Part shown: in pieces, positions 8,462 through 30,311 of the stretch
Position numbering within the stretch: position 1 is the first letter of the stretch
How the letters are laid out: each line of letters starts with the position of its first letter
NCBI GenBank assembly: GCA_029975765.1
Contig: JARKOK010000083.1
Span: forward strand, 1-36,596
Length of the DNA: 36,596 bases
Direction: 5' to 3'
Source: Aggregatilineales bacterium
GTDB lineage: Bacteria > Chloroflexota > Anaerolineae > Aggregatilineales > Phototrophicaceae
Made by a program: the position numbers and the translations under genes
The notes under the pieces: model-generated
Seen by the model: only the letters and a program-made list of their open reading frames with translations
What the model was told of the DNA's origin: nothing
The model's database searches: none

Positions 8462-9745
8462 CTATCTGCCGCAGTATTGTCCGACAGCCTCCGCCAGCAG
8501 CGTATTATCATAAGTCCCACGCGCCAACGCCGGCGCATTACCCCGAACTTTACAGCGAGGTTGAGTCTGGGTAAGGTCCAGGGCGATCAGCAGACTGACG
8601 ACCGGCGCGGCGAAGGATGTTCCTGCCCGATATTGATCGTCGTCAAAACTGAACCACGCCCCCGGTACGCTGACATCCCCGTTATTGGAATGTAACCAGA
8701 ACCGCAGATCATTCCCTTCGTTAGCACTCACGCTGATAACCTCCGGCCACTGCGCCGGGTAGAAGGGTTTACGCTGCTTGAAGTTCCCGGATGAAGCGAC
8801 CGGTATGATTGTCAGATCGCGGGATTGGCGCAGGAAATCTCGCAGTGGGTCGGTTCCCAGCTTCGTGTTATTAAAAAGCTTCAGGATGCGCAGGTCTTGT
8901 GCCCGAAATTCCGGTTTTGCGGCGGACGGCGTAGGGGGTACGGGCGGCACACCGTCAATTCGTGCCTGCCCCGGCGCTGATGGAAGTGCCTTGCTGCGCG
9001 GAGTTTCTGCGCCGATGTCGGTCAGGCCGGCTTCATCAATGTACCCGATGCGTGAGTCCTTCAGGATCGCCTGAACGTTTCGTGCATTACCGCCCAGATG
9101 TTCAACCAGCGAACGGTTGGGATTGTTTCGCCGCGCCTGGATAAAATCAGAGTAGTTGAATCCCAGGCTTTCGTCAGCGCAGGGAATAAACACAAAACTC
9201 ATATTCAGTACAAACCGGCTGATCCCCTGCGCCGACAGTTCTGCCACAGCGGATTGTATTTCCGGCAGAATCAGATCAGACTGGTATCCGGCCTCGTCAG
9301 CAATATTCACCTGTTGCAGGGTGATCTGCCCGGCGATATTCCGGGGCAAATAGTCATGTAGCTGCTGGAACACCTGCCAGACCAGCCAACCATGCGAAGC
9401 CGGCAGGTCTCCACTTCCATCAGATGAAAAATCATCCACAATCAGAATCGCAACTGCTTCCGATCCCGGGCGGGCATAAGCTAAATTATCCAGAATCCAC
9501 GCTACGTCAGCGGCTAAACCCGCCGCCTCGATGTCCTCACCTTCCGGTGTCAGGCCATTATCACCGGTTTCACCCGCCGCGCCCGCCGTACCGCTGTAGG
9601 CTTGCCCTAAAATCTGATCGGGTGTCAGGGCACAGTTGGCCGCCGATGCCCGGCGGCCCTGCGCCCAGGCCGGGGCGAGACTCATGACAAAAACACAAAC
9701 TAAACCTATAAACCCCCAAAACAGTTTTTTGAACAGGATAGACAT
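8462..9745 (-). CDS. Secreted S8 (subtilisin-like) serine peptidase
   Basis: N-terminal signal peptide; Asp (AILIVDDFSS), His (ASHGWLVWQ), oxyanion Asn (ASSGNF), Ser (AGTSFAAPVVS) motifs. Confidence 0.87.
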   Translation of the reverse strand: MSILFKKLFWGFIGLVCVFVMSLAPAWAQGRRASAANCALTPDQILGQAYSGTAGAAGETGDNGLTPEGEDIEAAGLAADVAWILDNLAYARPGSEAVAILIVDDFSSDGSGDLPASHGWLVWQVFQQLHDYLPRNIAGQITLQQVNIADEAGYQSDLILPEIQSAVAELSAQGISRFVLNMSFVFIPCADESLGFNYSDFIQARRNNPNRSLVEHLGGNARNVQAILKDSRIGYIDEAGLTDIGAETPRSKALPSAPGQARIDGVPPVPPTPSAAKPEFRAQDLRILKLFNNTKLGTDPLRDFLRQSRDLTIIPVASSGNFKQRKPFYPAQWPEVISVSANEGNDLRFWLHSNNGDVSVPGAWFSFDDDQYRAGTSFAAPVVSLLIALDLTQTQPRCKVRGNAPALARGTYDNTLLAEAVGQYCGR

Positions 9746-9760: not shown

Positions 9761-12166
9761 TTAAAGCTCCGGTTTAATCGTATACTTTCGCTCTTGCATA
9801 TATTGAATGAGATCATCGGACTGCGCTTTCGCTTTGACCTGCCGCCACAATGACAGGGCTTCATCGAACGCCGCCTGTGCCTGGATACGATCATCCAGCC
9901 GGTCTAAATCTTCACCAACCGAGCGCAAAGCTCCGGCCATCCAGAAATGGTTGTTCTGATCCCGCGCCAGATCATATGCCTCGTGGTGGGTAGCCAGAGC
10001 GGCTTTCACCAGCCCCAGTTCATGCTCGCATGATCCACGATTAAGCAGCGACCAGAACCGGATATCAGGCAGTTCCAGCGCCGCCGCGATTCTGGCAGCC
10101 TCGTCCGAAAGCTCCCTGCCGCGCTCATAATCCGGCGGCTGCTGATTGATAAACTGATAACCTCGATGATGCAGCACAAAACCCAGCACAAAATCATCGT
10201 TCAGGCTGCGGGCAATAACTTCCGCCTGCTCGTAGTAGCTGTCGGCATCGTCCGCCTGCTGATGAAAGCGCATCTTGCCGATGACGGTCAGCAAAATCGC
10301 TTCGCGGCGTGTGTCGCCAAGCACCCGCGCGAGGGCTAGCGCTTCCTGATAAGCTGTCAGCGCGGCCTCATAATCACCCATAAAATCAGCGTAAGTATTT
10401 CCCAGCTTGCTCAACAGATAATGAGCGGTTTCCAGTTCATTATGCTGCCGGGCCACCCGGATCGCACTTTCCAGCAGCTTTAAAGAAACCGCCGTATGCC
10501 CGCGTGCCGCAAAATACGGCCCGTCAACCGTTAACGATTTCATGATGGCGACAAACACCGCATCCTGATTGGCGTGATGGGCGGTTTCCGCTGCTTCCAG
10601 AATATTACTTTGTTCCACATCGAGCGCGTCCAGATCATCTTTATGAACGGCTGCATATGACCGGCAGGCGTCCACAACTGGCTGATGACTCCAACCCTTG
10701 TTCATAAACATGGTTCGGGCGTAGCTGTAAGCCAGATCATGGAGTCGGTAGTACCTGACCTGGTTATGCTGTCGGGCATTAACCAGCCCGCGTTCTTCCA
10801 GTTGGTCGAGTGCGTCCTCTACGGCATGGGGATCATGAGCCATCACCCGCGCGAGGAGTTCCGGCGTCGCGCTCGGTTCAAACATGCCGCCCAGACTGAC
10901 AAACACCTGGTATAACTCCTGGTGCAGCGCGCTGATACTCGTATCCAGCAGCGACTTTACGCCGGTGCGCCCCAGTTCGCCATAGTTGGCGGGCATACTG
11001 AGGTCATGCGGCGCATGTTCCACCCGCTGCAACAGTTCGCCGGGGGTTAGCTGGTAGACCTTAAGCGTCTTGCTGGCAATTTCCAGCGCAAAGGCGTGGT
11101 AGCCCAGAATTTCGCACAAGCGCCGGGCTTCGGCGTCGTGGCTCATATCCTGGCGGCGTGCGTATAAACTGAGCAGTCTCAGCGCCTCGTCCGGTTTTAA
11201 TTCACCAACTTCGACGATCTCATCCAGCGGAAAGCGGTGACGTGATGTCACCAGCAGCGGCATCGTGCGAGGAACGGCTTTAACAACACGCGCTAAGGCA
11301 GCACCATTCCACACATCATCTAATACCAGAAGGGCTTTGGCTTCCGCCAGAAGATGCCGGACGGCCTGTACGCGTTCATCGCCGGTTGTACTGACAACCG
11401 CCTGCTGGGCGCCTAATGCTCGCCCGATGGCCTCAAACACCGCATCGGCTTCCGCCGCCCCTACCCGCAGCCAGAGAACCGGCCCCTGGCCGGCGGCGAC
11501 GTGCTGAGCGGCAATCGAAGCCGCCAGCGCGGTTTTGCCCATACCACCGAAACCCCGGAGCAGGACACGCTCCCGGTCATCCAGTAACGCCTGCACCTCA
11601 GCCACCAGATCATCCCGCCCTACCAGCCGCCTGGGTTGTTCGGGTACATCGTCAGCCGTCCGAGCGAAAACGGCGCTGATGGCGCTGTGATAGGCAATCT
11701 GGCGCTCCAGCAGCCATTTTTCAACGGAACGGGCGACCTGCCGTTTGAGGTCTTCCGGGCTGGTAAACCAGCGAGGCGTAATGCCAAAACGCACATCGCT
11801 CTGTTTGTCCAGGAAGGCTTGCAGCCGGGGATCGCGCCGTTCCGGATTCAGATTCTTCACGTACAGGTGGCGCTCAATACCCAGTTCTGTCGCGCGCTCG
11901 AACTCATCGAGCGTCCATTCACCAAATTCGTTCCAGAATATGCCGATGTACAGAGCCGAATTTTGTAAGGCTTCCAGATAAACGTCACGAATGGATTTAT
12001 TACTGGCCGGCGCATCACCTTCAAAAACCCAGGTGCGGAGTTTAAAAATATCCTGCCCCAGTGTGGGAAGCAGTTCCTGAAGGGCTTTACGTTCTGCTGC
12101 CAGTTCCTGCATTTTCGAACTGATAAATACGGAGAGTTCGGTGGGCACTTTTAGCAACTCCGCCAT
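9761..12166 (-). CDS. DUF4062 - NB-ARC (STAND) NTPase - TPR protein
   Basis: N-term LSVFISSKMQELAAERKALQELL (DUF4062); Walker A GFGGMGKTALAA; Walker B ALLVLDDVW; LLVTSRHR; C-terminal TPR-like helices. Confidence 0.9.
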   Translation of the reverse strand: MAELLKVPTELSVFISSKMQELAAERKALQELLPTLGQDIFKLRTWVFEGDAPASNKSIRDVYLEALQNSALYIGIFWNEFGEWTLDEFERATELGIERHLYVKNLNPERRDPRLQAFLDKQSDVRFGITPRWFTSPEDLKRQVARSVEKWLLERQIAYHSAISAVFARTADDVPEQPRRLVGRDDLVAEVQALLDDRERVLLRGFGGMGKTALAASIAAQHVAAGQGPVLWLRVGAAEADAVFEAIGRALGAQQAVVSTTGDERVQAVRHLLAEAKALLVLDDVWNGAALARVVKAVPRTMPLLVTSRHRFPLDEIVEVGELKPDEALRLLSLYARRQDMSHDAEARRLCEILGYHAFALEIASKTLKVYQLTPGELLQRVEHAPHDLSMPANYGELGRTGVKSLLDTSISALHQELYQVFVSLGGMFEPSATPELLARVMAHDPHAVEDALDQLEERGLVNARQHNQVRYYRLHDLAYSYARTMFMNKGWSHQPVVDACRSYAAVHKDDLDALDVEQSNILEAAETAHHANQDAVFVAIMKSLTVDGPYFAARGHTAVSLKLLESAIRVARQHNELETAHYLLSKLGNTYADFMGDYEAALTAYQEALALARVLGDTRREAILLTVIGKMRFHQQADDADSYYEQAEVIARSLNDDFVLGFVLHHRGYQFINQQPPDYERGRELSDEAARIAAALELPDIRFWSLLNRGSCEHELGLVKAALATHHEAYDLARDQNNHFWMAGALRSVGEDLDRLDDRIQAQAAFDEALSLWRQVKAKAQSDDLIQYMQERKYTIKPEL

Positions 12167-13282: not shown

Positions 13283-15010
13283 CTAATCCTCGTCTCCATA
13301 ATGGCGATCTGCCACACCGTCGTATTCATGGTCCGTCGGGTGAATACTGCGCATCGGGCGCTCGCGGGTTTTTTCTTCGTATACCTGCGCCACCAGCCCC
13401 GGCAGCCGCGCCATCATGAAGAAGGTGTTCGCCAGTTCTACCGGCAGATTCAGGTCAACCAGCAGCGCGGCAATCGCGCCGTCCACGTTCACCGGCAGGC
13501 GTTTCCCGGTGGCTTCCGCCCAGGCGTCCTCAATCGCCCGCAGCATCTCTACCCCTGCCGAAGCGATACCCAACTCAGTCGCCAGTTCCAGCAGCCGTTT
13601 GGTGCGGGGGTCAGCCGTATGGATGCGGTGGCCGAAACCCGGCAGGCGCTTTTTCTCCTTACGACAGGCGGCGACCAGCGCCACCGCGCCCAGTTCGGCA
13701 GAACCGTCCATCACCCGTGCCAGTTCCAGGCCGCGCTGGATGAGGCGCATACTGTCTTCTATTGCCCCACCGTGATGCTGGTTGATACTCAGCAGCCCGG
13801 CAGCCAGCGCCGCGTTAAACGGCGCGCCGGTGCTGGCAGCGGTTCGCGCGGCCAGCGTGGACGGCGGCGACACGCCATGATCAATGGACGACACAAACAT
13901 CGCATCCAGCAGCCTGCCAACCTGCGGCGAGGGCAGTTCACCGGTAAGCGCCAGAAAAATCGCCTGGCTGAAGCTGATACAGCCCATCAGTTCGTCAATA
14001 CGATAACCACGCAGCCGGATTTCGTTCGGCCTGATGCTGGTGATTGCCGTTTTCCAGTGCAGTTCACTGTCCATAGGGGTTTGGTTCTCTTTTGCGAAGG
14101 GAATGGAAACCGTCCGCCGCTGTAACACGCGCTCGGTGACTTTCGGAATATCCGCGAACGACTCGACCACTTCCGCGCCAACTTCGCGCAGCCGCGCGAC
14201 CTTACTGGCATACGTGCCGCGATTGCCCTCGACAATCGCGCCGGCATGGCTAAAGCGTGTGCCACTCTTTGCAGCCTTACCGCCGATGTAGGCCACCAGC
14301 GGCTTGGTGAACTGCCCGGCGGCGATCAGGTCGGCGGCCATTTCTTCCTGCGACGTGCCGATTTCCCCAAACAGCACCACACATTCCGTCTGGGGGTCGG
14401 CCTCGAAGCGTTTTAGGACATCCGGGTGTGGCATCCCGACCACCGAGTCGCCGCCCACGTGCACCACCGTTGACAGCCCCATGCCCGCCTGCGCCAGATA
14501 GTAGGCGATGCTGGTTGTCACGCCGCCGCTGCGGCTGGTCACGCCGACCGGGCCGGGATAGAAATACTGGCGCACGCTGGCAGCGCGGCCCCCCATCATG
14601 CCTAACACGCCGCTGCCGGGGCTGAGGATGCCGAGCGTATTCGGGCCAACGAAAGTGGCGCCGCGCGTTTCAGCTTCGGCCACCAGTTCCAGCACGTCGT
14701 ACAGCGGCACGCGGTCGGGCACCAGCACCAGCAGTTTGACGCCTGCCGCCATCGCTTCCAGCGCGGCATTTTTCACCAGCGGCGCGGGCACAAAGATCAC
14801 GCTGACCTCAATCGCGCCCAGCGCATCACAGGCCGCGCCGACGGTATCAAACACCGGCACACCTTCGACGGTTTCGCCGCCGCGTCCCGGCGTGACACCG
14901 GCCACGACATTCGTACCGTAGCCCTTCATCAGTGCGGTGCGGGTCGCGCCTTCGCGCCCGGTGATGCCCTGCACCAGCACCCGTTTATCACGATCAATCA
15001 GAATCGCCAT
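13283..15010 (-). CDS. SucD-like CoA-binding/ligase domain fused to citrate-synthase/citryl-CoA-lyase-like domain (ATP-citrate-lyase C-half-like)
   Basis: VQGITGREG, phospho-His motif FSHAGAI, then DHGVSPPSTLAART, LPGFGHRIH, NVDGAIAALLVD. Confidence 0.87.
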   Translation of the reverse strand: MAILIDRDKRVLVQGITGREGATRTALMKGYGTNVVAGVTPGRGGETVEGVPVFDTVGAACDALGAIEVSVIFVPAPLVKNAALEAMAAGVKLLVLVPDRVPLYDVLELVAEAETRGATFVGPNTLGILSPGSGVLGMMGGRAASVRQYFYPGPVGVTSRSGGVTTSIAYYLAQAGMGLSTVVHVGGDSVVGMPHPDVLKRFEADPQTECVVLFGEIGTSQEEMAADLIAAGQFTKPLVAYIGGKAAKSGTRFSHAGAIVEGNRGTYASKVARLREVGAEVVESFADIPKVTERVLQRRTVSIPFAKENQTPMDSELHWKTAITSIRPNEIRLRGYRIDELMGCISFSQAIFLALTGELPSPQVGRLLDAMFVSSIDHGVSPPSTLAARTAASTGAPFNAALAAGLLSINQHHGGAIEDSMRLIQRGLELARVMDGSAELGAVALVAACRKEKKRLPGFGHRIHTADPRTKRLLELATELGIASAGVEMLRAIEDAWAEATGKRLPVNVDGAIAALLVDLNLPVELANTFFMMARLPGLVAQVYEEKTRERPMRSIHPTDHEYDGVADRHYGDED

Positions 15011-15012
15011 CG

Positions 15013-16536
15013 TTATGGCTCCAGACCGGGGATAGGCAGACGGATATAACCGCCGCCGCTGCCCCGGAAATGACACTCGACTTCACACGCCAGACACTCG
15101 ATGCAGCCGCCGCGTTTGGCCTCTTCGCGGCTGATGTTCAGCACCGGTACGCCGTTTTCCAGCGACAGGATTTTCGGCACGCACGTTTCGACACAGGCTT
15201 TGGTGGCGCAGTCCCGGCACACGGCATGATCGTAGGTGATCGTGCCGTTTGTGACCGTCTCAAACGTATACGGCTCGGCGGCAGGCGGTATCGCACGCGG
15301 GGAAGTGACTTCCGGTGTGTACGTGGCGACCAGATCGGCCAGACGACCCGCGCAGAATTCGGGTGTGTCGTCGCGGCCATAGGCTTCCACCGGCGCGGAA
15401 AAACTGCCGTTCGCCCGGTGCAGAATGTCCATCGCCTGTTCTTCGCCGTTGCCGCCAATGCGAATGACCGCCGGGACATTCAACTGCGTATCCATGAAGG
15501 CTTTCACCAGCCCGCGCGCCGAGTGAAACTGTTCCTGGCTGGCAAAACCGCTGCCGCCCATGAAGTAGGCATCCACACGCGGCTGTGCCAGGATAATCCG
15601 CGCCGCGCGGTAGACCTTGCTGGCGGGCGGATTGCCGCTGGTATCCACAAAATTGGCGATTTTAAATCCCTGCGCCAGCAGCGCGTCCATGTTCATCATG
15701 CTGCCGCCGCCGCCGTTGCCGTGAAAACCGACCACCTGATCTTCCGGCTGGAACTGCGTTTCAAGCTGCAAAAAATAGAACGTGCCGCGATAGTCGTTTT
15801 TCTCGACGTTCCAGGCGATACGTTCCAGCGGCGTCGGTGGGCGGTCAATCTCTCGCGCAATTTCGATACCTAAATCGGGATGGCGGAACACGGCGTAATC
15901 ATCAATCGTAAAGCGGCAGTCAAGCGCCATCAGGCTGCCATCGTTCGTCAGCGCCAGCGGATTGATCTCCGCCGACCGCGCTTCGTAAGTCCGTGCCGCG
16001 CCGTAAAATTTCACCAGCAGGGCGCTGAAGGCCAGCAGCAGCTTACCGCTGATACCCACCCGCCGCAGCAGGTCACGCGCCTCATAATCGCGCAGGCCGG
16101 TACGCAAATCCGGCGCGAACTGTGCCACCTGATCGGGATGGGCGAGGGCGATTTCTTCAATACCGCTGCCGCCTACCCCGCTGACAATTAACATCGGGCG
16201 GCGGGCGCGGTCATCCACGATCAGCCCAACATAGAATTCGCGCTCAATTGAGATTTGTTCTTCGACCAGGACAGCATCAATGGCGAAGTTGCCGACAGTC
16301 TGACCGATCAGTGTTTCCGCTGCCGTGCGGGCTTCTTCGGGCGTATTGGCGAAAACAATCAGCTTTTTAGCGGCGCGGGATGTCACCCACGCCTGCGCTT
16401 TGACCACGACCCCGCCGCCCAGCATCACCGCCTGCTGGTAGGCTTCATCCGGTGTATGGGCCACGCCGCCGCGCGGCACGCGAATACCGGCAGCGACGAG
16501 GATGGTTTTACCCTGATGTTCGTGCAGCCGTGCCAT
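15013..16536 (-). CDS. SucC-like ATP-grasp subunit with C-terminal 2x[4Fe-4S] ferredoxin-like domain
   Basis: MARLHEHQGKTILVAAGIRVPRG; GFHGNGGGGSMMNMDAL; GGSGFASQEQFH; then CRDCATKACVETCVP and CIECLACEVEC. Confidence 0.85.
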   Translation of the reverse strand: MARLHEHQGKTILVAAGIRVPRGGVAHTPDEAYQQAVMLGGGVVVKAQAWVTSRAAKKLIVFANTPEEARTAAETLIGQTVGNFAIDAVLVEEQISIEREFYVGLIVDDRARRPMLIVSGVGGSGIEEIALAHPDQVAQFAPDLRTGLRDYEARDLLRRVGISGKLLLAFSALLVKFYGAARTYEARSAEINPLALTNDGSLMALDCRFTIDDYAVFRHPDLGIEIAREIDRPPTPLERIAWNVEKNDYRGTFYFLQLETQFQPEDQVVGFHGNGGGGSMMNMDALLAQGFKIANFVDTSGNPPASKVYRAARIILAQPRVDAYFMGGSGFASQEQFHSARGLVKAFMDTQLNVPAVIRIGGNGEEQAMDILHRANGSFSAPVEAYGRDDTPEFCAGRLADLVATYTPEVTSPRAIPPAAEPYTFETVTNGTITYDHAVCRDCATKACVETCVPKILSLENGVPVLNISREEAKRGGCIECLACEVECHFRGSGGGYIRLPIPGLEP

Positions 16537-16537
16537 G

Positions 16538-18622
16538 TTATGCCGGACTCACTTCCAGACTCAGATAGGCGGTGTGGCCGCCATCCCCGGTCGTAAAGCC
16601 GACCTGCCCGGTCAGATATGCCGTGTCGTCATCTGTCCAGCGCAGCGCCGCCATCTGCCCCCCACCCTCTGCCAGCGCCACCAGTTCACTGCCGCAGGCC
16701 GTCACGGTCAGTCGGTAAGTTTCGCCGTGCCGCCAGTCAAACGGCGCAGACGCAATCTTTATATACTCCCGATCTTTTTTGTAGAGGGCGATACAACCAT
16801 CCGACGCGAGGCCGAAGGCATACGAGCGCAGCGCGCCCTGCACCCGCACATTGACACGGTGATGGTCTCCCAACAGCGGCACGAGTTCGGCGCTCACGCG
16901 GTAATCCAACCACCGCCCGTCGCCGGTATAGCTTTCACACCAGCCCGGCCCGCTGCCATGATACGCGCCATCTTCCAGCCGCCAGAAACCGCGCAGATGC
17001 GTCCAACCGCTGATCGCGCCGGTTTCCGGTCGTTCCTTCGCAAACGTTGTTTTATAATCTGGCGCGCCGTCCCAGTCCAGCGATGCCAGGCAGAACGAAC
17101 CGCGCTCCCAGATCGGGTCCAGCACACGCAGGACGATACCCACCTGCGACAGACAGGCATCCACCATCGGCGGTACGGTGTAAGTCAGATCATGCCAGCC
17201 GGGGGTAAGCGCCACACTCTGCGGCTGGTGGTAGGTTTTATGGTTGTCGTCATAGACGAAGATCGCCGCCAGCACCGACTCCGGCGTATCCTGCGCCGGC
17301 AGATACACCCGCGCCCGAATGGTCTGCCCCGGTGCAACCAGCGGCGTAAACTGCGCGCCGTAGGAATTGGCGCTCAGGTCAGATGGGCGGTAGTTAGTGC
17401 GCGTAAAAATCCGCAGTTCACCTTTTTTGTTCAGCTTGCGGATAGCGACTCGCAGAACGCCAGCGCCGTCCACCGTGTCGTGAGCGCGATGTGTCGGAAT
17501 TGCGCGGTCGCCTTTGACTTCAAACGTATTGAGTGAGCCGGGATAGCGGAAGTGATAGCGCGGCGCGGGTTCGCTGGTCATGCCGTTCAGCCGCCGTCCC
17601 AACTGACAGAACAGATCCACACACTGCGGGATCGTCAGAATATTGCGCGTGCCGATGATGCTGGCCGCCACCAGCACATCGTTGATCGGTTCGCGCCAGC
17701 GGGAGTCAATCGCGTCAATGCCGAGTGCCACGCCCATGATTGTGCCCACGTTGCCCACGTTGCAGTCGGTATCCCAGCCGCCCATATTGGCGATCCGTAT
17801 CGAGCGTGAAAAATCGCCTTCGCCGTACAGCAGGCCAAGCGCGATAATGCCCGCGTTCGGGATAATATGCACCACACCGCCGTAGCGATCATACCCAAAA
17901 TTGGCTTTCAGGTAAGCGTAGGCATCACGCCAGTTCTCCGGGTGGTCGTGGTGGAAATCCACCATCGCCCGTATGACACGGGCATACTCGCTGTCTGCCG
18001 GAATCTGCTGGAGGCCAATTTCGATCAACCGCTTCGGGTCAGACTCAGAGAAGGCCGCGCTGACCATCGCCGCGATAAACCGCCCACCATAAATGCCGTT
18101 GCCGTCGTGGGTAACGCTGGAGGCGCGTTCGGCCAGTTCCGCCGCACGCGCCGGATTATTGGGCGCGACCAATCCCCAGATGTCGCTGAAAATCTGCCCG
18201 CCGATCTGCTCGGCAGTGGTCGCGCCGTTCTGAGCGATGGAGCCGGAGCGCGGCGCGGGAATGCCGTTTGCCAGGTTCAGATATGCCGTATGCTCGGTCG
18301 AGATACCGTAGCCGCCCCACCAGATCGAACCATGCTGGTCGCCCAGGTAATTCAGCAGCGTATCCCCAAGCTGCTCAGCGGTCGGGTCATCGCCATAATC
18401 TTCCAGCGCGCGGATGAAAATCATCGGCACGCAGGTGTCATCGTCGGGCTTGAACACCTTACCGCCCTCGCCAAAAGCGTACCATTCCAGTTCACCCAGG
18501 TGATCGCGGATATGGTCATACGTCCAGTTTTCCAGCGGCGCGCCGAAGCGCACGCCAACGCACTTGCCCAGCCAGCCGGCATAGACGCGCTCATCATAAT
18601 CCGGGGGAATTTGCTGTGTCAT
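16538..18622 (-). CDS. ADP-ribosylglycohydrolase-family protein with C-terminal LamG/DUF1080-like extension
   Basis: FKPDDDTCVPM and MGGWDTDCNVGNVGTIMGVALG metal-site motifs; C-term concanavalin-like beta-rich segment (WRLEDGAYHGSG...GQVGFTTGDGGHTAYLSLEV). Confidence 0.85.
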   Translation of the reverse strand: MTQQIPPDYDERVYAGWLGKCVGVRFGAPLENWTYDHIRDHLGELEWYAFGEGGKVFKPDDDTCVPMIFIRALEDYGDDPTAEQLGDTLLNYLGDQHGSIWWGGYGISTEHTAYLNLANGIPAPRSGSIAQNGATTAEQIGGQIFSDIWGLVAPNNPARAAELAERASSVTHDGNGIYGGRFIAAMVSAAFSESDPKRLIEIGLQQIPADSEYARVIRAMVDFHHDHPENWRDAYAYLKANFGYDRYGGVVHIIPNAGIIALGLLYGEGDFSRSIRIANMGGWDTDCNVGNVGTIMGVALGIDAIDSRWREPINDVLVAASIIGTRNILTIPQCVDLFCQLGRRLNGMTSEPAPRYHFRYPGSLNTFEVKGDRAIPTHRAHDTVDGAGVLRVAIRKLNKKGELRIFTRTNYRPSDLSANSYGAQFTPLVAPGQTIRARVYLPAQDTPESVLAAIFVYDDNHKTYHQPQSVALTPGWHDLTYTVPPMVDACLSQVGIVLRVLDPIWERGSFCLASLDWDGAPDYKTTFAKERPETGAISGWTHLRGFWRLEDGAYHGSGPGWCESYTGDGRWLDYRVSAELVPLLGDHHRVNVRVQGALRSYAFGLASDGCIALYKKDREYIKIASAPFDWRHGETYRLTVTACGSELVALAEGGGQMAALRWTDDDTAYLTGQVGFTTGDGGHTAYLSLEVSPA

Positions 18623-18673
18623 GAGTTCGTTGTTCCTTCAATACAAAGCATACATACGACTGCTTACCGGCGG

Positions 18674-19579
18674 CTATCCCTTCAACCCTAACGAGGCGAT
18701 GCCGCCGATTAAATGGCGCTGCGCGAAGAAGTACAGCACCAGCACCGGAAGAATTGAAACCAGCGTGGCCGCCATGAACATATTCCATTCCACACTGTAA
18801 CGTCCCCGGAAAAACGCCAGCCCGACCGAAATCGGATAGGTTGCAAAATCATTCAGGTAAATGAGCGGCTGAAGAAAATCATTCCACACCCACAGGAACG
18901 TGAAGACGATCATCACCGTCAGCACCGGCCTGCACAGCGGCAGGATGATGCGGTACAGGACTGTCCACGTCCCCGCGCCGTCAATCCGCGCGGCTTCGTC
19001 CAGATCACGCGGGATCGTGCGAATGTACTGCACCATCAGAAACGTGAAAAAGGCGTTGCCAAAAAAGGAAGGTAAAATGAGCGGGACATAGGTGCCCGTC
19101 AGACGCAGTTGGCTGTAAATCGAATACAGCGGAATCAGCTTAATCTGACTCGGTATCATCATCGTGCTGAGCATCAGAATGAACAGTACGCGCTTAAACG
19201 GGAAATTCAACCGGGCGAACCCAAAAGCGATAATCGGCACGGACACCAGTTCGCCAATCGTACAGCCGATCACCAGGATGAAACTGTTCAGCATGAAGCG
19301 GCCCAGCGGATACTTGGCAAACGCTTCCGCGTAATTCCCCCACAGCGGTTGTTCGGGAATCCAGGTCGGCGGCCAGGCCAGAATTTCCGTCCGGGATTTA
19401 AGCGATGTGGAAATCATCCACAGCAGCGGCATCATAAAGACGATGGCAATCGCCGTCATGACAACATAAGCAGTGATGTAACCGCCGTATTTCCGCACGC
19501 GGAAGCGCGCGGTATCCGCTGCCCGCTGCTGCGCCAGCCGTCCCGCCGGAGCTGCCGTTAACACATTATTCCGACTCAT
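18674..19579 (-). CDS. Carbohydrate ABC transporter permease (MalG type)
   Basis: EAARIDGAGTWTVLYRIILPLCRPVLTV EAA loop. Confidence 0.93.
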   Translation of the reverse strand: MSRNNVLTAAPAGRLAQQRAADTARFRVRKYGGYITAYVVMTAIAIVFMMPLLWMISTSLKSRTEILAWPPTWIPEQPLWGNYAEAFAKYPLGRFMLNSFILVIGCTIGELVSVPIIAFGFARLNFPFKRVLFILMLSTMMIPSQIKLIPLYSIYSQLRLTGTYVPLILPSFFGNAFFTFLMVQYIRTIPRDLDEAARIDGAGTWTVLYRIILPLCRPVLTVMIVFTFLWVWNDFLQPLIYLNDFATYPISVGLAFFRGRYSVEWNMFMAATLVSILPVLVLYFFAQRHLIGGIASLGLKG

Positions 19580-20477
19580 AATAGACCCACCGTTTCGAGG
19601 TGTAATTGACGAAAATCGTCGTTAACAGGATGATGATCGTCAGCACAACCGCCAGCGCCGAGGCATAGCCCAGATTAAAGTTACGGAAGGCTTCTTCATA
19701 AAAGTACAGCAGATAAAAATAAGTGGCCTTTAGCGGCCCGCCATTCGTGATGACATACGCTTCGGTAAACACCTTGAACGAATCGATCATTTCGATAATA
19801 AGCTGGAAGAACAGCGTGGGTGTCAATAATGGGAGCGTGATCTTCCAGAAGCGCGACCAGGGGCCAGCGCCGTCAATCTCTGCCGCTTCATACAGATGCG
19901 CCGGGATATTCTGCAATCCGGCCAGATAAATGATCGCGCTGCCACCGACCTTCCACACACTCATCAACGCGACGGAAGGCAGCGCCCAGTTCGGGTCCCA
20001 GAACCAGTTTGGCCCTTTGATACCCATGTAATACAGCAGCGTATTGACAACGCCGGTATCGGGCTGCATCAGCCACATCCACATCAGCGAAACCGCCACA
20101 CCTGAGATCACCGCCGGGATGTAAAACACGGTGCGAAAGAAATTCATGCCCGGCACTTTGAGGTTGAGCAGCAGCGCCAGCGCCAGCCCCAAGACCAGTT
20201 TGAGCGGCAGCGACAGAGCCACAAAACCGAGCGTCACTTTCAACGCCTGCCAGAACAGCGGGTCGTTGGTGAACATCCGCACGTAGTTATTGAAGCCAAT
20301 CCATCTTGGCGGCTCCATACCTGTCCACTGCGTCATGCTGACATACAGCGAAACACTGATCGGAATCACGGTAAACGCGATAAAACCAATTATCCAGGGA
20401 AGCAGGCTGATATAACCCTCGACAGCCTCGCGCCGTGTATTGGGATTCGCGGAACGCCAGCGTGCGATAATTGCCAT
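19566..20477 (-). CDS. Sugar ABC transporter permease (MalF/UgpA type)
   Basis: EAAEIDGAGPWSRFWKITLPLLTPTLFF; overlaps the downstream permease by 14 bp. Confidence 0.93.
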   Translation of the reverse strand: MAIIARWRSANPNTRREAVEGYISLLPWIIGFIAFTVIPISVSLYVSMTQWTGMEPPRWIGFNNYVRMFTNDPLFWQALKVTLGFVALSLPLKLVLGLALALLLNLKVPGMNFFRTVFYIPAVISGVAVSLMWMWLMQPDTGVVNTLLYYMGIKGPNWFWDPNWALPSVALMSVWKVGGSAIIYLAGLQNIPAHLYEAAEIDGAGPWSRFWKITLPLLTPTLFFQLIIEMIDSFKVFTEAYVITNGGPLKATYFYLLYFYEEAFRNFNLGYASALAVVLTIIILLTTIFVNYTSKRWVYYESE

Positions 20478-20520
20478 AGGTAACTCTTCTGGCTTTTATT
20501 TATGGAAGATTGGGTCATCC

Positions 20521-20547
20521 GTAGGGACACGGCAGCCGTGTCCCTAC
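20521..20547. repeat. REP-like palindrome GTAGGGACACGGC-A-GCCGTGTCCCTAC
   Basis: 13-bp perfect arms, between SBP and permease genes of one operon. Confidence 0.85.
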
Positions 20548-20586
20548 AGCCATACATGGAGAAAACGCCAGACTATCTGTAAGGAT

Positions 20587-21870
20587 TTACCCGCCCAGTC
20601 GGCCAACACACTCATCCAGCGCGGCCTGCGCTGCCGGCACCAGACCGTCCAGCATGGACTGGACGGCATCCCGTTCCACCTGCCCCAGCATCACCAGATC
20701 CCACGCGTCCGACACGGAGCGCAGCACGGTGCCTTTGCACGGGTGCTTGTTGTCCCACGCGGCCACCTGTTCCAGTTGCAGTACGTCCAGGAAGGCCTGG
20801 CCGTAATCGGTGTCAGCCGCTTCCCAGTTTTCCAGTACGGCTGGAATCGAGGGGATCAGGTTGCCATTCTCCATCAGGAACTGCTGCCCTTCCGGGCCGG
20901 CCCAGTAGCTCAGCCATTCGTAGGCTTCAGCCGGGTGCTGCGTGCCCTTCCAGACGGACACGGTGAGCGACCAGGCATTTACGTGGCGGGTGTTACCTTC
21001 AACCTGCGGTTCAGGCACAATGCCAAAATTCTTGTCCACCGCGATAGCATTCTGCATGTGTCCCTGATTCAGGGTTGCCATCGCCAGCCGGTCGGCCAGG
21101 AACAGATCAACCGGGCCGGTGCCTTCCGTGCCAAGAACTTCCAGATCAGCTGGAGTGGGCGTGCCATTGGTCGCCACCAGGTCCCACAGCCATTGGTACG
21201 CCGCTACCGATGCCGGACTGTTGAGATAACCTTCAACCGTCGTACTGTCGTCACTGTACAGCCGCGCCCCCATGTTGTACCAGATCGCCCGGTATGGCCC
21301 GCGCGGACGGTCACCGCCCCAGACACGCGCATCCGGGTTCGCCAGAGCGGCGACGGTTTGAATGTAATCTTCTGGTGTCCAGTCGGCTTCCGGGTAGGCT
21401 ACGCCGGCGGCATCAAACATATCCTTGTTGTACATAACGAAGTTCGCGCCGACACCCAGCGGCAGGCCGATAATGGTATCGTTAAAGACGACGCGCGTAT
21501 TCCAGAAACCGGGCAGGTACATTTCCGGGTCAATGTCAGGATCGGCTTCGATGTACCCGGTAAGATCAAGCGCCTGCGGATACCAGTTGGTGTTCCAGAA
21601 TAAGGCCACATCCGGCGCGCCCTGGCCGGCGCCGAGTGTCGTCTGCATCCGCTCGTCATAACCGTCCGACGGCAGCAGCGTCATATTGACCCGAATGTTG
21701 GGATGCTCGGCGTTGAACTTGTCTACCAGTGCGCGCTGCACAGCCTCATCGAATTCTTCCGAGGCCACCGTCCACCACTCAATAGTGACCGGCTCCTGCG
21801 CCATCAGGCTTAACGACGGCACCAGGACCAAAAGGACAAAGACTGCGGTTCGAAAAAGCAATTTCATCAT
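20587..21870 (-). CDS. Sugar ABC transporter substrate-binding protein (SBP_bac_1 type)
   Basis: Signal peptide; VTIEWWTVASEEFDEAVQRALVDKFNAEHPNIRVN; RBS AAGGAG. Confidence 0.93.
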   Translation of the reverse strand: MMKLLFRTAVFVLLVLVPSLSLMAQEPVTIEWWTVASEEFDEAVQRALVDKFNAEHPNIRVNMTLLPSDGYDERMQTTLGAGQGAPDVALFWNTNWYPQALDLTGYIEADPDIDPEMYLPGFWNTRVVFNDTIIGLPLGVGANFVMYNKDMFDAAGVAYPEADWTPEDYIQTVAALANPDARVWGGDRPRGPYRAIWYNMGARLYSDDSTTVEGYLNSPASVAAYQWLWDLVATNGTPTPADLEVLGTEGTGPVDLFLADRLAMATLNQGHMQNAIAVDKNFGIVPEPQVEGNTRHVNAWSLTVSVWKGTQHPAEAYEWLSYWAGPEGQQFLMENGNLIPSIPAVLENWEAADTDYGQAFLDVLQLEQVAAWDNKHPCKGTVLRSVSDAWDLVMLGQVERDAVQSMLDGLVPAAQAALDECVGRLGG

Positions 21871-21896
21871 ACACTCCTTCAATGACTGAAACCTAT

Positions 21897-22907
21897 TTAC
21901 CCGATCACGTGCCGGCTGTTCACCCAGTCACGCTCGTAAGCGACTTCGACTAACTGCTGAGCCACCTCCACAATGTCACGCTGAGCGGCAAACTTCAGAC
22001 ATACCCCCGCCGGGCGGCGCACTTTGTCCGCCCAATCCTGGGGAATGACGTCACGCCCATGCATCGCGCCTGACAGCGCCCCTACCAGAGCGGCAATCGT
22101 GTCCGCATCGCGGCCAAAATTACATGCCCACAGCATCCCTTTACGAAAGTCACCACCTGTCAGCAGGAAGATTCCGTAAGCCTGCGGCAGCGCCTCGGCC
22201 ACCATCGAGTGAACAGGATTCCACAGGTCAATGTGCAGATATTCCCATGCCTCCTCGATGGTCGGATGCTGGTCACAGATGGCGAGCGCACGTTTTAAGG
22301 AACGCCCCAACCAGCTATCCGCCGGAACCTGCTCAACACCCGTCGTTATAATTTCTCGCGGCGTGGCATGATCGAGCGCAACGGCAATACTGGCGGCGAC
22401 AGCCTGCGCGCCCCAGACACCATCACGCGCGTGACTGATCTGCGCTTCGATCCCGCTGATTTCGGCAGCGCGCGCCGGATTGCCCGCGCAGAGGATACCG
22501 ACCGGCGCAATGCGCATAGCCGCGCCGTCATCATCATTCTGGGGATTGTCTATCCCGGTCTGCGGGGGTTCCATCCCCCGTGCCAGATTGGCGACCGAAC
22601 CGTACAGCGGTTTGCCGCCCCGATCTCCCATGCCACCCTGCCCCAGAATGTATTTGCGCCACGATTCCGCGACCCGGCTTAACGTGAGTTCCCCGCGCCA
22701 GTCAATCAACGTCTGCGCCGTGAGGATGGCGAACTCCGTATCGTCCGTGCTTCTCGCGCCTTCATACATCCGGGTGATAATGCCGTACCGCTGGCGGTGA
22801 GCATCACTGCGCCCCAGGTCGCCCATCGCGTCGCCGACTGCCAGACCCAGCAGACAGCCGGTTGCGCGGTCGAGGAAATCCTCCGAAGGTTTTGAAGAAC
22901 CTGCCAT
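21897..22907 (-). CDS. ADP-ribosylglycohydrolase family protein
   Basis: CLLGLAVGDAMGD; ARSTDDTEFA; NFGRDADTIAALVGALSGAMHG; ATG at 22907 preceded by CAGGA. Confidence 0.92.
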   Translation of the reverse strand: MAGSSKPSEDFLDRATGCLLGLAVGDAMGDLGRSDAHRQRYGIITRMYEGARSTDDTEFAILTAQTLIDWRGELTLSRVAESWRKYILGQGGMGDRGGKPLYGSVANLARGMEPPQTGIDNPQNDDDGAAMRIAPVGILCAGNPARAAEISGIEAQISHARDGVWGAQAVAASIAVALDHATPREIITTGVEQVPADSWLGRSLKRALAICDQHPTIEEAWEYLHIDLWNPVHSMVAEALPQAYGIFLLTGGDFRKGMLWACNFGRDADTIAALVGALSGAMHGRDVIPQDWADKVRRPAGVCLKFAAQRDIVEVAQQLVEVAYERDWVNSRHVIG

Positions 22908-22939
22908 GACAAAATCCTGTTTGCGGAATGCTTCACCCA

Positions 22940-22989
22940 AAATGAGAACGTTCTCATTTCGAGAATATCACGTTTTTTGATTTATGCAA
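22940..22989 (-). promoter_or_regulatory. LacI-type operator AAATGAGAACGTTCTCATTT immediately downstream of promoter TTGCAT-N16-TATTCT
   Basis: 20-bp perfect palindrome 22940-22959 with central CG; -10 at 22967-22962, -35 at 22989-22984 (minus strand). Confidence 0.85.
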
Positions 22990-23008: not shown

Positions 23009-24025
23009 CTAACGAGGTGAATTGTAGATTGCCGTAGAGCCACGTGTGACAAGCTGGCAGGCAAGCTGGAGATGGCGCGGCGGGTGCGTTTCGGTGTCGG
23101 TCATCCGGGTGATGAGCAGTTCTGCCGCCTGCCGGCCAATGTCATACTTGGGCTTGACGACGGTCGTCAGGGCTGGCGACGTGATGGATGCCGCGTAAAT
23201 ATCGTCCATCCCCATGATGGATACGTCCTCCGGCACGCGGCAGCCCATCGCCTGCGCTGCCCGCAGCGCCCCAATCGCCAGAATATCGTTGGCCGCAAAG
23301 ACCGCGCTGGGTGGTCGGTCGCTGTGTAACAGGCGCAGCATAGCGTCATAGCCGGCCTGCTCGCTGAACTCCGTTTCGATGATGAGGTTATTATCTAGCG
23401 GCAGCTTATGCTGAGCATGAAAGGTGATATAACCATCGTAGCGCAGTCGTTCAGTATTGGTGCGCGAACGCCCCGCGCAGAGGCCAATGCGGCGGTGGCC
23501 GAGTTCGTACAGATAGGCCAGACTGTCAGCGACAGCATCGCGGGTGGCGCTGCCAACCGAGTCAAAATCCGGGTAGTACGTGCCGGAGCCGAGGATAACA
23601 ACCGGTATATGCAGGTTCTTGAGCGTATCATTGGATACCGTCGCCGGGTTGATAATCAGGCCGTCAAAACGGTTGCGCCGCACCAGCCGCAGATAATACT
23701 GTTCCCGGTCCGCTTTCCAGTCAGTATTCACCGTCACGACGGCATACCCCAACTGCTCCAGCCCATCCTGTACACCACGCGCCACTTCCGGCCAGAAAGG
23801 GTTGGTGATGTCAGGGATCGAGAGCGCCACCAGCTTGGTTTGATCGGTGCGCAGGCTGCTGGCGACAGCGTTGCGTTCGTAGCCCAACTGGGCGGCAGCC
23901 TGGAGCACTCGCTCGCGGGTAGCTGGCCGTACCAGCGTCTGATCGCCATTCACGACCCGCGCGGCAGTGGCTTTTGACACGCCCGCCAGTCGTGCAACAT
24001 CAATAATCGTAGGTCTGCGTGTCAT
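23009..24025 (-). CDS. LacI family transcriptional regulator
   Basis: PTIIDVARLAGVSKATAARVVNG HTH; periplasmic-binding-like domain; AAAGGA RBS before ATG 24025. Confidence 0.95.
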   Translation of the reverse strand: MTRRPTIIDVARLAGVSKATAARVVNGDQTLVRPATRERVLQAAAQLGYERNAVASSLRTDQTKLVALSIPDITNPFWPEVARGVQDGLEQLGYAVVTVNTDWKADREQYYLRLVRRNRFDGLIINPATVSNDTLKNLHIPVVILGSGTYYPDFDSVGSATRDAVADSLAYLYELGHRRIGLCAGRSRTNTERLRYDGYITFHAQHKLPLDNNLIIETEFSEQAGYDAMLRLLHSDRPPSAVFAANDILAIGALRAAQAMGCRVPEDVSIMGMDDIYAASITSPALTTVVKPKYDIGRQAAELLITRMTDTETHPPRHLQLACQLVTRGSTAIYNSPR

Positions 24026-24039
24026 GCTTGTTTCATCCT

Positions 24040-24057
24040 TTGCGACCGTTCTCATTT
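24040..24057. promoter_or_regulatory. Imperfect second copy of the LacI-type operator (TTGCGACCGTTCTCATTT)
   Basis: Right half GTTCTCATTT identical to the 22940-22959 palindrome; left half degenerate; in the lacI/24104 divergent region. Confidence 0.55.
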
Positions 24058-27928: not shown

Positions 27929-30223
27929 CTACTCCGTAACACCACTTCCACCAAACCCCAGAAAGGTTGTCCCGCCCAGAATCTGGTCGGCCACCTCAAA
28001 TGCCCTGCTCCAACATCTCCCGGCCTCCACGTACTTTTCTTCGAGGGACGCCACAAATCCCAATTGCCAGTACGCGGTCTGAATAGCATACTTAAAATCA
28101 ATTTCTTCTGCCGCTTTCAGCCCTTGCTGTATCCACTTTCTGGCAGCCTCGAACTCACGAAGCCGGATTTCAAGCAATCCCAGCACTTCCGTACAGAGTG
28201 TGCTCTTTGACCAATTGTCGCCATTCGTTTCAAAGGTATTTAATGCCTCTTGCGCCAACTGCGCCGCTTGCGGGTAATCGCCATCTCCAATGGCTTTCAC
28301 AGCAAGCAGCAGCTTTGCTTTAGCGATTGCCCATTCATCACCTGTTCTGGAAGCAATTTCCAGGCAGTCCTGCGCCGTCTGAAGTGGAACTCCTTCTTCA
28401 TCGAGCAGGCAGGAGGTGATAAACAGGCTGATCAGTGGCAGGATCATCATATCTTCCCGGTTTTTAAGCTGCTTAAGAATCTCAACTCCTTCCTTCGCCA
28501 AAGCATAGCCGTGTTTTGCATCCCCACTAACAACATATATCCTGTACTCTGTCATCCACAACGGAGCGGGCATGGACGATTGTTTGTATACCTCTCCTGT
28601 TACCGAGTACAGTCCCTGAACGGCCAGCAGCCAGCCCAGCCCGGCACGAGCCTCATCTGTGCCGGCTGCACGCATGACCTGAATCCCTTGTTCAAACAGA
28701 TCAATACCCGCCAGATACCAACCGCGCATGTCGTAAACAGCCCAAAGGGTATGCAGAAACATATTGAGACGGACAATGTTGCCTGCCCTGATCCAGTATT
28801 GCCACGCGGCCCGCACATTCTCAATATCCGCTTCGACCTCCTCAACAGCCGTTTTTTGCCGGAAGTCTTTCATACGAGGCCAGCGCTCGACCATGAAATT
28901 GGCAAAGTAGATAGCATGAGCCTGATACAGCAGTTCCGATTCACCGGATGCTTCGAGCTGTTCTTCCGCATAGTGGCGTAGCAGTTCATGAAATTCGTAA
29001 CGTCCGGTGTTCGGATTGCGCCGCAAAAGTGATTTGTAAACAAGCGCCTGCAGGGTTCGCAGCCCAACGCTAGTTATGGCCTCTCCGGCTACGCGGGTGA
29101 AACCGCCCTGAAACACCGACAACCGGCGAAAAGCTACCTGCTGGGTTTCATCCAGTAGCTGCCATGACCGGTCAAAGGCTGCTCGTATGCTGCGCTGGCG
29201 TTCGGGTATGTCCTGTCGTTGGACTTCTAAAACATCGAGGTTGTGTTCGATTTCTTCTGCGATTTCCTGGGGCGACAGGGTATCCATCCATGTGGCTGCA
29301 AGTTCAATGCCGAGTGGCATCCCGTCCACCAGGCGGCAGATACGCTCAATGTGTTGCAGGGTATCCGAATTCCAATCCAGAGTCGGGCTGACGGATTGCG
29401 CGCGTTCAATAAACAGTTGAGCGGACTCAGATTGTGCTGCATCGCTCTGATGTGTCGGCAGGGCCATACCGGCAACCGGATAAGTTACTTCCCCGTACAG
29501 GTTTAACCGCTCACGCGAGGTAACGAGAATCTTCACTCCCGGTGCCGCCTGGAGCATCTCAGTGATCCATGCCGCCCCGGCGATAAGATGTTCAAAGTTA
29601 TCCAGCACCAGTAAGAGATTCTTTGGACGCAGATAGGCGAATAGCTGGGCCGCTGGCTCACTCGAAACGTTAAACTGGAAATTCAGCCGCTCCGCAATTG
29701 TCCAAAGGATGTGATCGGTCGTGAGCACCGGTGCGAGAGGCACAAACCAGACGCCGTCACTGAAACTTGGCAGCATGTCTTTCGCTACCTGTAACGCCAG
29801 TCGCGTTTTCCCTGCCCCCCCAATTCCGGTAAGGGTCAGCAGCCTGGATTTTTGCAGCACCTGCTGTACTGCGATGACTTCGCGGCGACGCCCGATAAAC
29901 GAAGACACCTGGGCTGGAAGATTATTTCGTGGTTGTTGCGGAATAACAGCGGCGGTTTCCGCGCGTTCTGTTTGATCGGGCAGATCGAATAGTCCCAGCG
30001 TTTTGGCGCGGGACGTTGCCTGGGTGCGGTTACGCACATCCAGCTTACCGTAGATGCGTTTGTTGTACCATTTGACTGTGTCCAGCGCGACCGAAAGCGT
30101 CCGCGCGATTTCCCGGTCAGACAGCCCTTCAGCGATAAAACGGAGAATGGTCTGTTCGCGTTCTGTAAGAGGTTCGAACGGTAGCGTCAGGCGGGAGTCC
30201 TCGCCTGCATTTTCGACAGCCAT
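27929..30223 (-). CDS. LuxR-type HTH (N-terminal) - NB-ARC/STAND ATPase - TPR transcriptional regulator
   Basis: LTEREQTILRFIAEGLSDREIARTLSVALDTVKWYNKRIYGKLDVRNRTQA at N-term; Walker A GIGGAGKTRLA; LLVLDNFEHL; LVTSRERL. Confidence 0.92.
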   Translation of the reverse strand: MAVENAGEDSRLTLPFEPLTEREQTILRFIAEGLSDREIARTLSVALDTVKWYNKRIYGKLDVRNRTQATSRAKTLGLFDLPDQTERAETAAVIPQQPRNNLPAQVSSFIGRRREVIAVQQVLQKSRLLTLTGIGGAGKTRLALQVAKDMLPSFSDGVWFVPLAPVLTTDHILWTIAERLNFQFNVSSEPAAQLFAYLRPKNLLLVLDNFEHLIAGAAWITEMLQAAPGVKILVTSRERLNLYGEVTYPVAGMALPTHQSDAAQSESAQLFIERAQSVSPTLDWNSDTLQHIERICRLVDGMPLGIELAATWMDTLSPQEIAEEIEHNLDVLEVQRQDIPERQRSIRAAFDRSWQLLDETQQVAFRRLSVFQGGFTRVAGEAITSVGLRTLQALVYKSLLRRNPNTGRYEFHELLRHYAEEQLEASGESELLYQAHAIYFANFMVERWPRMKDFRQKTAVEEVEADIENVRAAWQYWIRAGNIVRLNMFLHTLWAVYDMRGWYLAGIDLFEQGIQVMRAAGTDEARAGLGWLLAVQGLYSVTGEVYKQSSMPAPLWMTEYRIYVVSGDAKHGYALAKEGVEILKQLKNREDMMILPLISLFITSCLLDEEGVPLQTAQDCLEIASRTGDEWAIAKAKLLLAVKAIGDGDYPQAAQLAQEALNTFETNGDNWSKSTLCTEVLGLLEIRLREFEAARKWIQQGLKAAEEIDFKYAIQTAYWQLGFVASLEEKYVEAGRCWSRAFEVADQILGGTTFLGFGGSGVTE

Positions 30224-30311
30224 TGCCACCTCAGTCCCAGCCTAAAGGTATTTTGTAACAACTAACTATACTGAACTCTTCCTTGACGGTCAAACCAGAT
30301 TCCCCTCTTGT

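Follow-up and report, generated by a model that had tools for sequence, protein, structure and literature searches.

A Widespread Bacterial Relative of ATP Citrate Lyase with a Ferredoxin Domain, Apparently Not Yet Described

Introduction

What would iron-sulfur clusters do on a subunit of an ATP citrate lyase-like enzyme? To our knowledge, no involvement of electrons is known in the enzyme family of the ATP citrate lyase type. The question is raised by a 36,596-nucleotide stretch of DNA (the window) from an Aggregatilineales bacterium of the Chloroflexota, which carries a 507-residue open reading frame on its minus strand (15013-16536). A preliminary description had read this frame as a SucC-like ATP-grasp protein ending in a 2x[4Fe-4S]-type domain, and Pfam searches, the cysteine motifs and AlphaFold models have borne out both the frame and this reading. 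It belongs to a group of bacterial relatives of ATP citrate lyase that carry a ferredoxin domain, are widespread and have apparently not been described so far. In this regard, the open-access literature that we searched, together with few subscription journals and preprints, holds no description of a ferredoxin-bearing ATP-grasp subunit. The chemistry is already known in kind, and what is new is the ferredoxin-bearing subunit, its one-cluster derivative and the operon around them. Our best explanation, which we hold tentatively and at close to an even chance, is a heteromeric citryl-CoA synthetase/lyase variant with a non-catalytic ferredoxin module for redox sensing or docking.

The ATP-Grasp Subunit and Its Ferredoxin Domain

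All the genes and domains given below for this gene run lie on the minus strand. The ATP-grasp (SucC/CcsA-like) subunit is built, in this order, of an ATP-grasp_2 domain, a citrate-binding-like flavodoxin domain and a C-terminal 2x[4Fe-4S]-type ferredoxin domain. The first of them (15955-16533; residues 2-194; Pfam, 2.4e-41) keeps K46, E190, N192 and D206 unchanged across 39 relatives, and its phosphate loop, TGRAGxGG in most relatives, reads TSRAAKKL in the window, where the glycines are partly lost. The second (15370-15720; residues 273-389) shows the pattern GGGGS...GNPPASK. The preliminary description had supposed that the ferredoxin module replaced the citrate-binding domain, which proved mistaken: a stretch similar to PF16114 (Citrate_bind) spans residues 274-389, just above the Pfam cut-off (27.2 against 26.8 bits) and at E<=0.01 in 39 of 39 family members, and the ferredoxin domain has been added after it. 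Outside the ferredoxin domain there is a ninth cysteine, C395 (15352-15354), which is present in 88 of 88 relatives and may serve a separate function. The AlphaFold model of the whole protein reached a mean pLDDT of 91.5 and a pTM of 0.76, and its Foldseek matches were SucC, CcsA and ACLY over alignments of ~320-470 columns; none of the 50 structures listed for this model combined a CoA ligase and a ferredoxin domain.

The ferredoxin domain itself (15016-15273; residues about 422-507) contains two cysteine motifs, CX2CX4CX3C (C440, C443, C448 and C452; 15181-15219) and CX2CX2CX3C (C478, C481, C484 and C488; 15073-15105). Both spacings are as first described, except that the proline placed directly after the fourth cysteine is preceded by a valine (V-P). 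The preliminary description had staked its reading on the conservation of these cysteines among homologs, and conserved they are: the eight cluster cysteines are invariant in 75 of the 75 alignable proteins among the best 80 of 371 candidate loci, and all eight are present in 81 of the 88 sequences of a larger set, the other seven forming one clade of Acidobacteriota. Judged from the alignments, conservation of the pattern is far above chance. Pfam Fer4 models, however, score the domain only under their curated cut-offs, the best one for the relative L093 being Fer4_9 with 19.8 bits (cut-off 27; 18.2 bits for the window domain), and Fer4_9 appears at this sub-cut-off level in 13 of 39 full-length proteins and 15 of 18 isolated domains, so that a routine domain search would overlook the architecture.

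Structural modelling pointed in the same direction. Within the full protein, most of the domain was predicted with a pLDDT of about 93-97; modelled in isolation, it gave a mean pLDDT of 93.2 and a pTM of 0.82, two of the five models being poor. The check by AlphaFold and Foldseek proposed in the preliminary description gave in this way a confident ferredoxin-like fold: the PDB neighbours of the isolated domain were mostly ferredoxin domains, with probabilities up to 0.99 and E-values of 0.02-0.3, which are weak as expected for 86 residues. The best profile match was a subunit of 2-oxoglutarate:acceptor oxidoreductase (E = 0.005). FixX/ETF-QO was also considered as the nearest ferredoxin type and is not favoured, since phmmer matched only 7koe_D, a ferredoxin-like chain (E = 4), which the profile did not recover. 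The domain shares its pair of cysteine motifs and its fold with bacterial 2[4Fe-4S] ferredoxins and modules such as those of oxalate oxidoreductase, StnB, HydB and Azotobacter FdI, but differs from them in the CX2CX4CX3C spacing of motif 1, in a conserved LPIxGL tail and in its fusion to a CoA ligase. We regard it as a real-looking iron-sulfur domain that would presumably be occupied by clusters. Chance cysteines, a fusion by frameshift or a chimeric assembly could be suspected in a fragmented assembly like that of the window (594 contigs, contamination 6.65%), but the same full-length protein with conserved cysteines recurs in scores of independent assemblies, and the probability of such an artefact is practically negligible.

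A Natural One-Cluster Form

The exceptions to the eight-cysteine pattern are themselves informative. In seven genomes of one Acidobacteriota class (L117-L123; also L112 and L113), the ferredoxin domain has been kept and one complete set of cluster ligands is gone: Cys1-3 are absent in 7/7 and Cys8 in 6/7, and Cys4, Cys5, Cys6 and Cys7 are retained in 7/7. The ligands of cluster I in classical 2[4Fe-4S] ferredoxins are Cys1-3 and Cys8, those of cluster II Cys5-7 and Cys4. The pattern of loss matches this ligation, which indicates that one whole cluster has disappeared from the clade; had the four kept ligands been picked randomly, this very set would have come up with a chance of 1/70. Moreover, these proteins are monophyletic in the tree (support 1.0) and branch from within the two-cluster proteins, so the loss was a single evolutionary event. 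As far as can be read from sequence, the pattern argues for genuine ferredoxin-type clusters instead of accidental cysteines or a zinc site, and shows that the second cluster is dispensable, two not being strictly required. Relatives lacking the whole C-terminal domain were not seen; among 297 Acidobacteriota genomes, all complete matches reach residue 506 or 507, and the two short matches begin where a contig ends. Oxygen was rejected as the sole cause of the cluster loss, as COX1 occurs in 7/7 one-cluster genomes, and in the same class 6/6 two-cluster genomes have it too, as does the genome of the window.

These findings bear on what the clusters are for. A purely structural part, in which they would keep the C-terminal domain folded, perhaps at the lyase or subunit interface, and have no redox role, is possible though doubtful. 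It would agree with a redox-neutral reaction, with the retention of the domain after one cluster had been lost, and with the occurrence of two- and one-cluster forms in related aerobic-capable genomes, which suggests that cluster number is not critical; a second cluster invariant in 81 of 88 proteins over about ten phyla would nevertheless be costly as a mere brace, and the survival of the fold after its loss indicates that there it was not needed for folding. We modestly prefer a redox-responsive or docking role.

Very unlikely, on the other hand, is a direct redox coupling in which electrons would cross the clusters during the catalytic cycle, for instance in a complex with a ferredoxin-dependent oxidoreductase. 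The profile match of the domain to an oxidoreductase subunit fits such a coupling, as do the genes lying divergently beside the operon in L038, L041 and L048, which we read from sequence and position, not from a domain search, as 2-oxoacid:ferredoxin oxidoreductase, HdrA-like and ETF-like. Against it, the reaction has no redox step, the protein has no flavin or other redox site, and seven genomes make do with one cluster, no 2-oxoacid:ferredoxin oxidoreductase being detectable in three of them. This oxidoreductase is absent from those 3/7 one-cluster genomes against 1/27 two-cluster genomes, a difference with p = 0.02 when kinship is ignored, and the sole two-cluster genome without it, L124 (G783), groups next to the one-cluster clade with a support of only 0.31. 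Such co-occurrence speaks weakly for our best explanation, a module for redox sensing or docking.

The Partner Subunit and the Known Citrate Enzymes

Adjacent to the ATP-grasp gene lies a partner (13283-15010) in which a SucD-like CoA-binding/phosphohistidine part is fused to a citryl-CoA lyase of the citrate-synthase fold. Its likely start is an ATG at 15010, two bases past the ATP-grasp stop codon, the GTG at 15076 being only the start of the longest open reading frame. With the fusion next to the ATP-grasp gene, the pair would make an ATP-citrate-lyase-like enzyme comprising four types of domain: ATP-grasp, citrate-binding, CoA-binding/phosphohistidine and citrate-synthase-like. In the lyase domain (13298-14062), the segments HGGA, GHR and NVDG are intact and align with 6hxp_A. 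Such segments contain the catalytic residues of the citrate-synthase type (His, His, Asp). The top PDB match of this domain is the citryl-CoA lyase of Hydrogenobacter, 6hxp, with 196 bits against 65 for the next one. In the SucD-like part (14117-15010), the phosphohistidine segment SHAGAI, found in 55/55 relatives and in the window, aligns with GHAGAI of SucD. Equally constant, in 55/55 relatives and the window (about 14702-14716), is D-R-V-P in place of the E-G-I-P of SucD, a change that may mean another substrate or specificity, or an altered catalysis. The glutamate of E-G-I-P is the putative counterpart of E599 of human ACLY, the catalytic Glu of its SucD part (PMC10115795).

Among the closest characterised systems, CcsA/CcsB and citryl-CoA lyase of Hydrogenobacter (6hxq, 6hxp) also consist of a SucC-like subunit, a SucD-like subunit and a short lyase with the citrate-synthase fold. 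The signature GGGGS...GNPPAxK is common to 6hxq_B and to a consensus-like sequence of the family, the window included, and is not found in SucC. In contrast, CcsA/CcsB and the lyase have no reported ferredoxin domain, and the window has SucD and lyase fused and carries D-R-V-P. The AclA/AclB enzymes of Chlorobium (6hxj) and Methanothrix (6hxi) combine, as in the window, ATP-grasp with citrate-binding and SucD with citrate-synthase-like parts, but the window adds the ferredoxin domain and most of its relatives have three separate genes; in sequence AclA/AclB are more remote, with a profile score of 140 bits against 297 for SucC. Overall similarity of the ATP-grasp subunit peaks at Thermus SucC, above the citrate enzymes, and it is SucC/SucD that score highest overall in sequence with both the ATP-grasp and the SucD part, sharing also the phosphohistidine segment. 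They have neither lyase nor ferredoxin, however; a separate SucC/SucD pair is present in the window's genome, and the ATP-grasp product misses the NCBIfam SucC equivalog cut-off (227.6 against 370 bits). A CCS/CCL set described in Planctomycetes, with relatives that have fused ccsB-ccl and with ferredoxin not mentioned (PMC5459899), possibly represents a neighbouring branch. The citrate-synthase-like module of human ACLY has been argued to be allosteric (PMC10115795), so the division of labour between domains may differ.

Gene Neighbourhoods and Carrier Genomes

A scan of one genome per species yielded 371 candidate relatives, of which the best 80 are 54-82% identical over almost the whole length and of the same architecture. 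These 80 loci come from about ten phyla of mostly uncultured bacteria, with assembly labels of Chloroflexota, KSB1, Caldithrix, Neomarinimicrobiota, Cloacimonetes, Zixibacteria, Deferribacteres, Gemmatimonadetes, Acidobacteria/Aminicenantes, Eremiobacterota and Trueperaceae; the labels are those of the records, some of which may be misbinned. The closest named relatives of the window are Anaerolineae and Aggregatilineales assemblies. The gene is present in 21 of 297 Acidobacteriota genomes and in two of 301 genomes of a phylum-wide Chloroflexota sample, one of them the window's own, which makes for a patchy distribution in the latter phylum.

In the family at large, separate genes encode SucD (about 300 aa) and the citryl-CoA lyase (about 259 aa), and in most relatives these stand at the head of an operon with an HD-domain protein, one or two sets of LeuC/LeuD-type aconitase, a dehydrogenase of the isocitrate/isopropylmalate type and a PrpD family member. 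In 24 long loci we counted the lyase 22 times, HD 18, LeuC 17, the dehydrogenase 17, LeuD 12 and PrpD 11, all of them lower bounds because gene calling was crude. The HD-domain protein (about 177 aa; L093:13272-13802) comes next after the lyase gene in 18 of these 24 loci, and in L085, L087, L093 and L044 there are two distinct LeuC/LeuD-type pairs per operon, one of them divergent. The operon dehydrogenase is nearest to models of methanogen homoisocitrate dehydrogenase, under their cut-off.

The window belongs to a clade of 15 proteins (support 1.0 in the tree) in which SucD and lyase are fused wherever the full partner gene is readable. Here the aconitase/dehydrogenase part is absent nearby and a sugar-transport operon stands instead, genes for a sugar-type ABC transporter and ADP-ribosylglycohydrolase-like proteins adjoining the pair in each of the 10 long loci that have the fusion. 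In the window, a putative esterase (PF00756; 12365-13279) follows immediately downstream of the partner. Immediately upstream of the ATP-grasp gene lies an ADP-ribosylglycohydrolase-like protein of 694 aa (16538-18622), the same neighbour as elsewhere in the clade, and beyond it are an ABC transporter (18674-21882; permeases at 18674-19579 and 19566-20477, solute-binding protein at 20587-21882), a second ADP-ribosylglycohydrolase-like protein (21897-22940) and, at the head of the gene run, a LacI-type regulator (23009-24055). A conserved run of ABC transporter, LacI and two to three ADP-ribosylglycohydrolase-like proteins is seen in the window (16538-22940) and in L020-L029, L040, L046 and L055. 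Farther away, the window encodes a STAND-like protein with DUF4062, NB-ARC and TPR domains (9761-12166, minus strand), for which PADLOC gave only a weak TPR match, its 427-residue neighbour with weak similarity to subtilisin-like proteases (8462-9745), and a regulator with LuxR-type HTH, NB-ARC and TPR domains (27929-30229, minus strand).

A full-length citrate synthase is absent from six of 29 carrier genomes (G372, G373, G374, G375, G381 and G387), although incomplete assemblies may add to these absences, completeness not being given for the carriers. The other 23 have citrate synthase genes outside the operon (pieces in G363 and G384), and we therefore discarded the idea that the enzyme replaces citrate synthase as a rule. 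In G372, the operon holds the sole aconitase-family gene and the sole gene of the isocitrate/isopropylmalate dehydrogenase family; G374 and G375 each have just one more dehydrogenase of this family, which is close to a LeuC-like gene and probably represents LeuB. In the genome of the window, genes for citrate synthase, aconitase, the Iso_dh family and SucC/SucD are present at other places. With citrate synthase absent from some carriers and present in this one, citrate may be a product of the enzyme in some hosts and its substrate in others, the direction not being readable from the sequence.

The same machinery could instead act on another acid, such as 2-methylcitrate or a homocitrate-like compound, with the operon as a dedicated side pathway, a reading that we consider rather unlikely. 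The PrpD family member, the two LeuCD-type sets of some operons, a dehydrogenase nearest to homoisocitrate dehydrogenase models, the D-R-V-P change and the citrate synthase retained by most carriers all fit this substrate change, but the signature shared with citryl-CoA synthetase, a lyase nearest to citryl-CoA lyase and the G372 operon, with the only aconitase- and Iso_dh-family genes of its genome, do not. Moreover, 2-methylisocitrate is a tertiary alcohol and so no substrate for such a dehydrogenase, which leaves it unusable by the one in the operon.

A Proposed Mechanism and Its Significance

The reading as a citryl-CoA synthetase/lyase draws on the set of domains and the translational coupling of the pair, on the 6hxp match, the 6hxq_B signature, the phosphohistidine segment and the operon, and on the carriers without full-length citrate synthase. 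For the ferredoxin module, it draws on the eight cysteines kept in 81 of 88 proteins, the loss of one cluster and the modelled fold. We count against it the nearness of the ATP-grasp subunit to Thermus SucC, the D-R-V-P change, the homoisocitrate-like dehydrogenase and the sugar-transport setting of the window's clade. By analogy with homologous enzymes and their intact residues, the ATP-grasp subunit would use ATP to phosphorylate the histidine of the SucD-like part, an acid of the citrate type, presumably citrate itself, would be converted into the CoA thioester, and citryl-CoA would then be split by the citrate-synthase-fold domain into acetyl-CoA and oxaloacetate, or the reaction would run in the reverse direction. 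To this machinery the ATP-grasp subunit would have gained its C-terminal ferredoxin domain with two [4Fe-4S] clusters, one in the derived Acidobacteriota clade. As the catalysed reaction is redox-neutral, the clusters are most likely regulatory or docking elements, not catalysts; we infer a redox- or oxygen-responsive module, or a docking site for ferredoxin-linked partners. A bolder and unlikely proposal is that the clusters sense the ferredoxin pool, which would switch the synthetase/lyase on, off or into reverse. If so, in bacteria without citrate synthase the enzyme would be an ATP-conserving entry into the TCA cycle whose direction is set by electron supply.

The one-cluster clade of Acidobacteriota amounts to a natural one-cluster mutant, usable as a natural control. 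A widespread form of the enzyme in a ready-made operon of the citrate-to-2-oxoglutarate type affects the reading of central metabolism in many uncultured bacteria, the more so as it occurs in some genomes where citrate synthase is absent. With a ferredoxin domain on a citrate-type enzyme, which may sense or dock to the redox machinery of the cell, redox control of the direction of the TCA cycle becomes directly testable.
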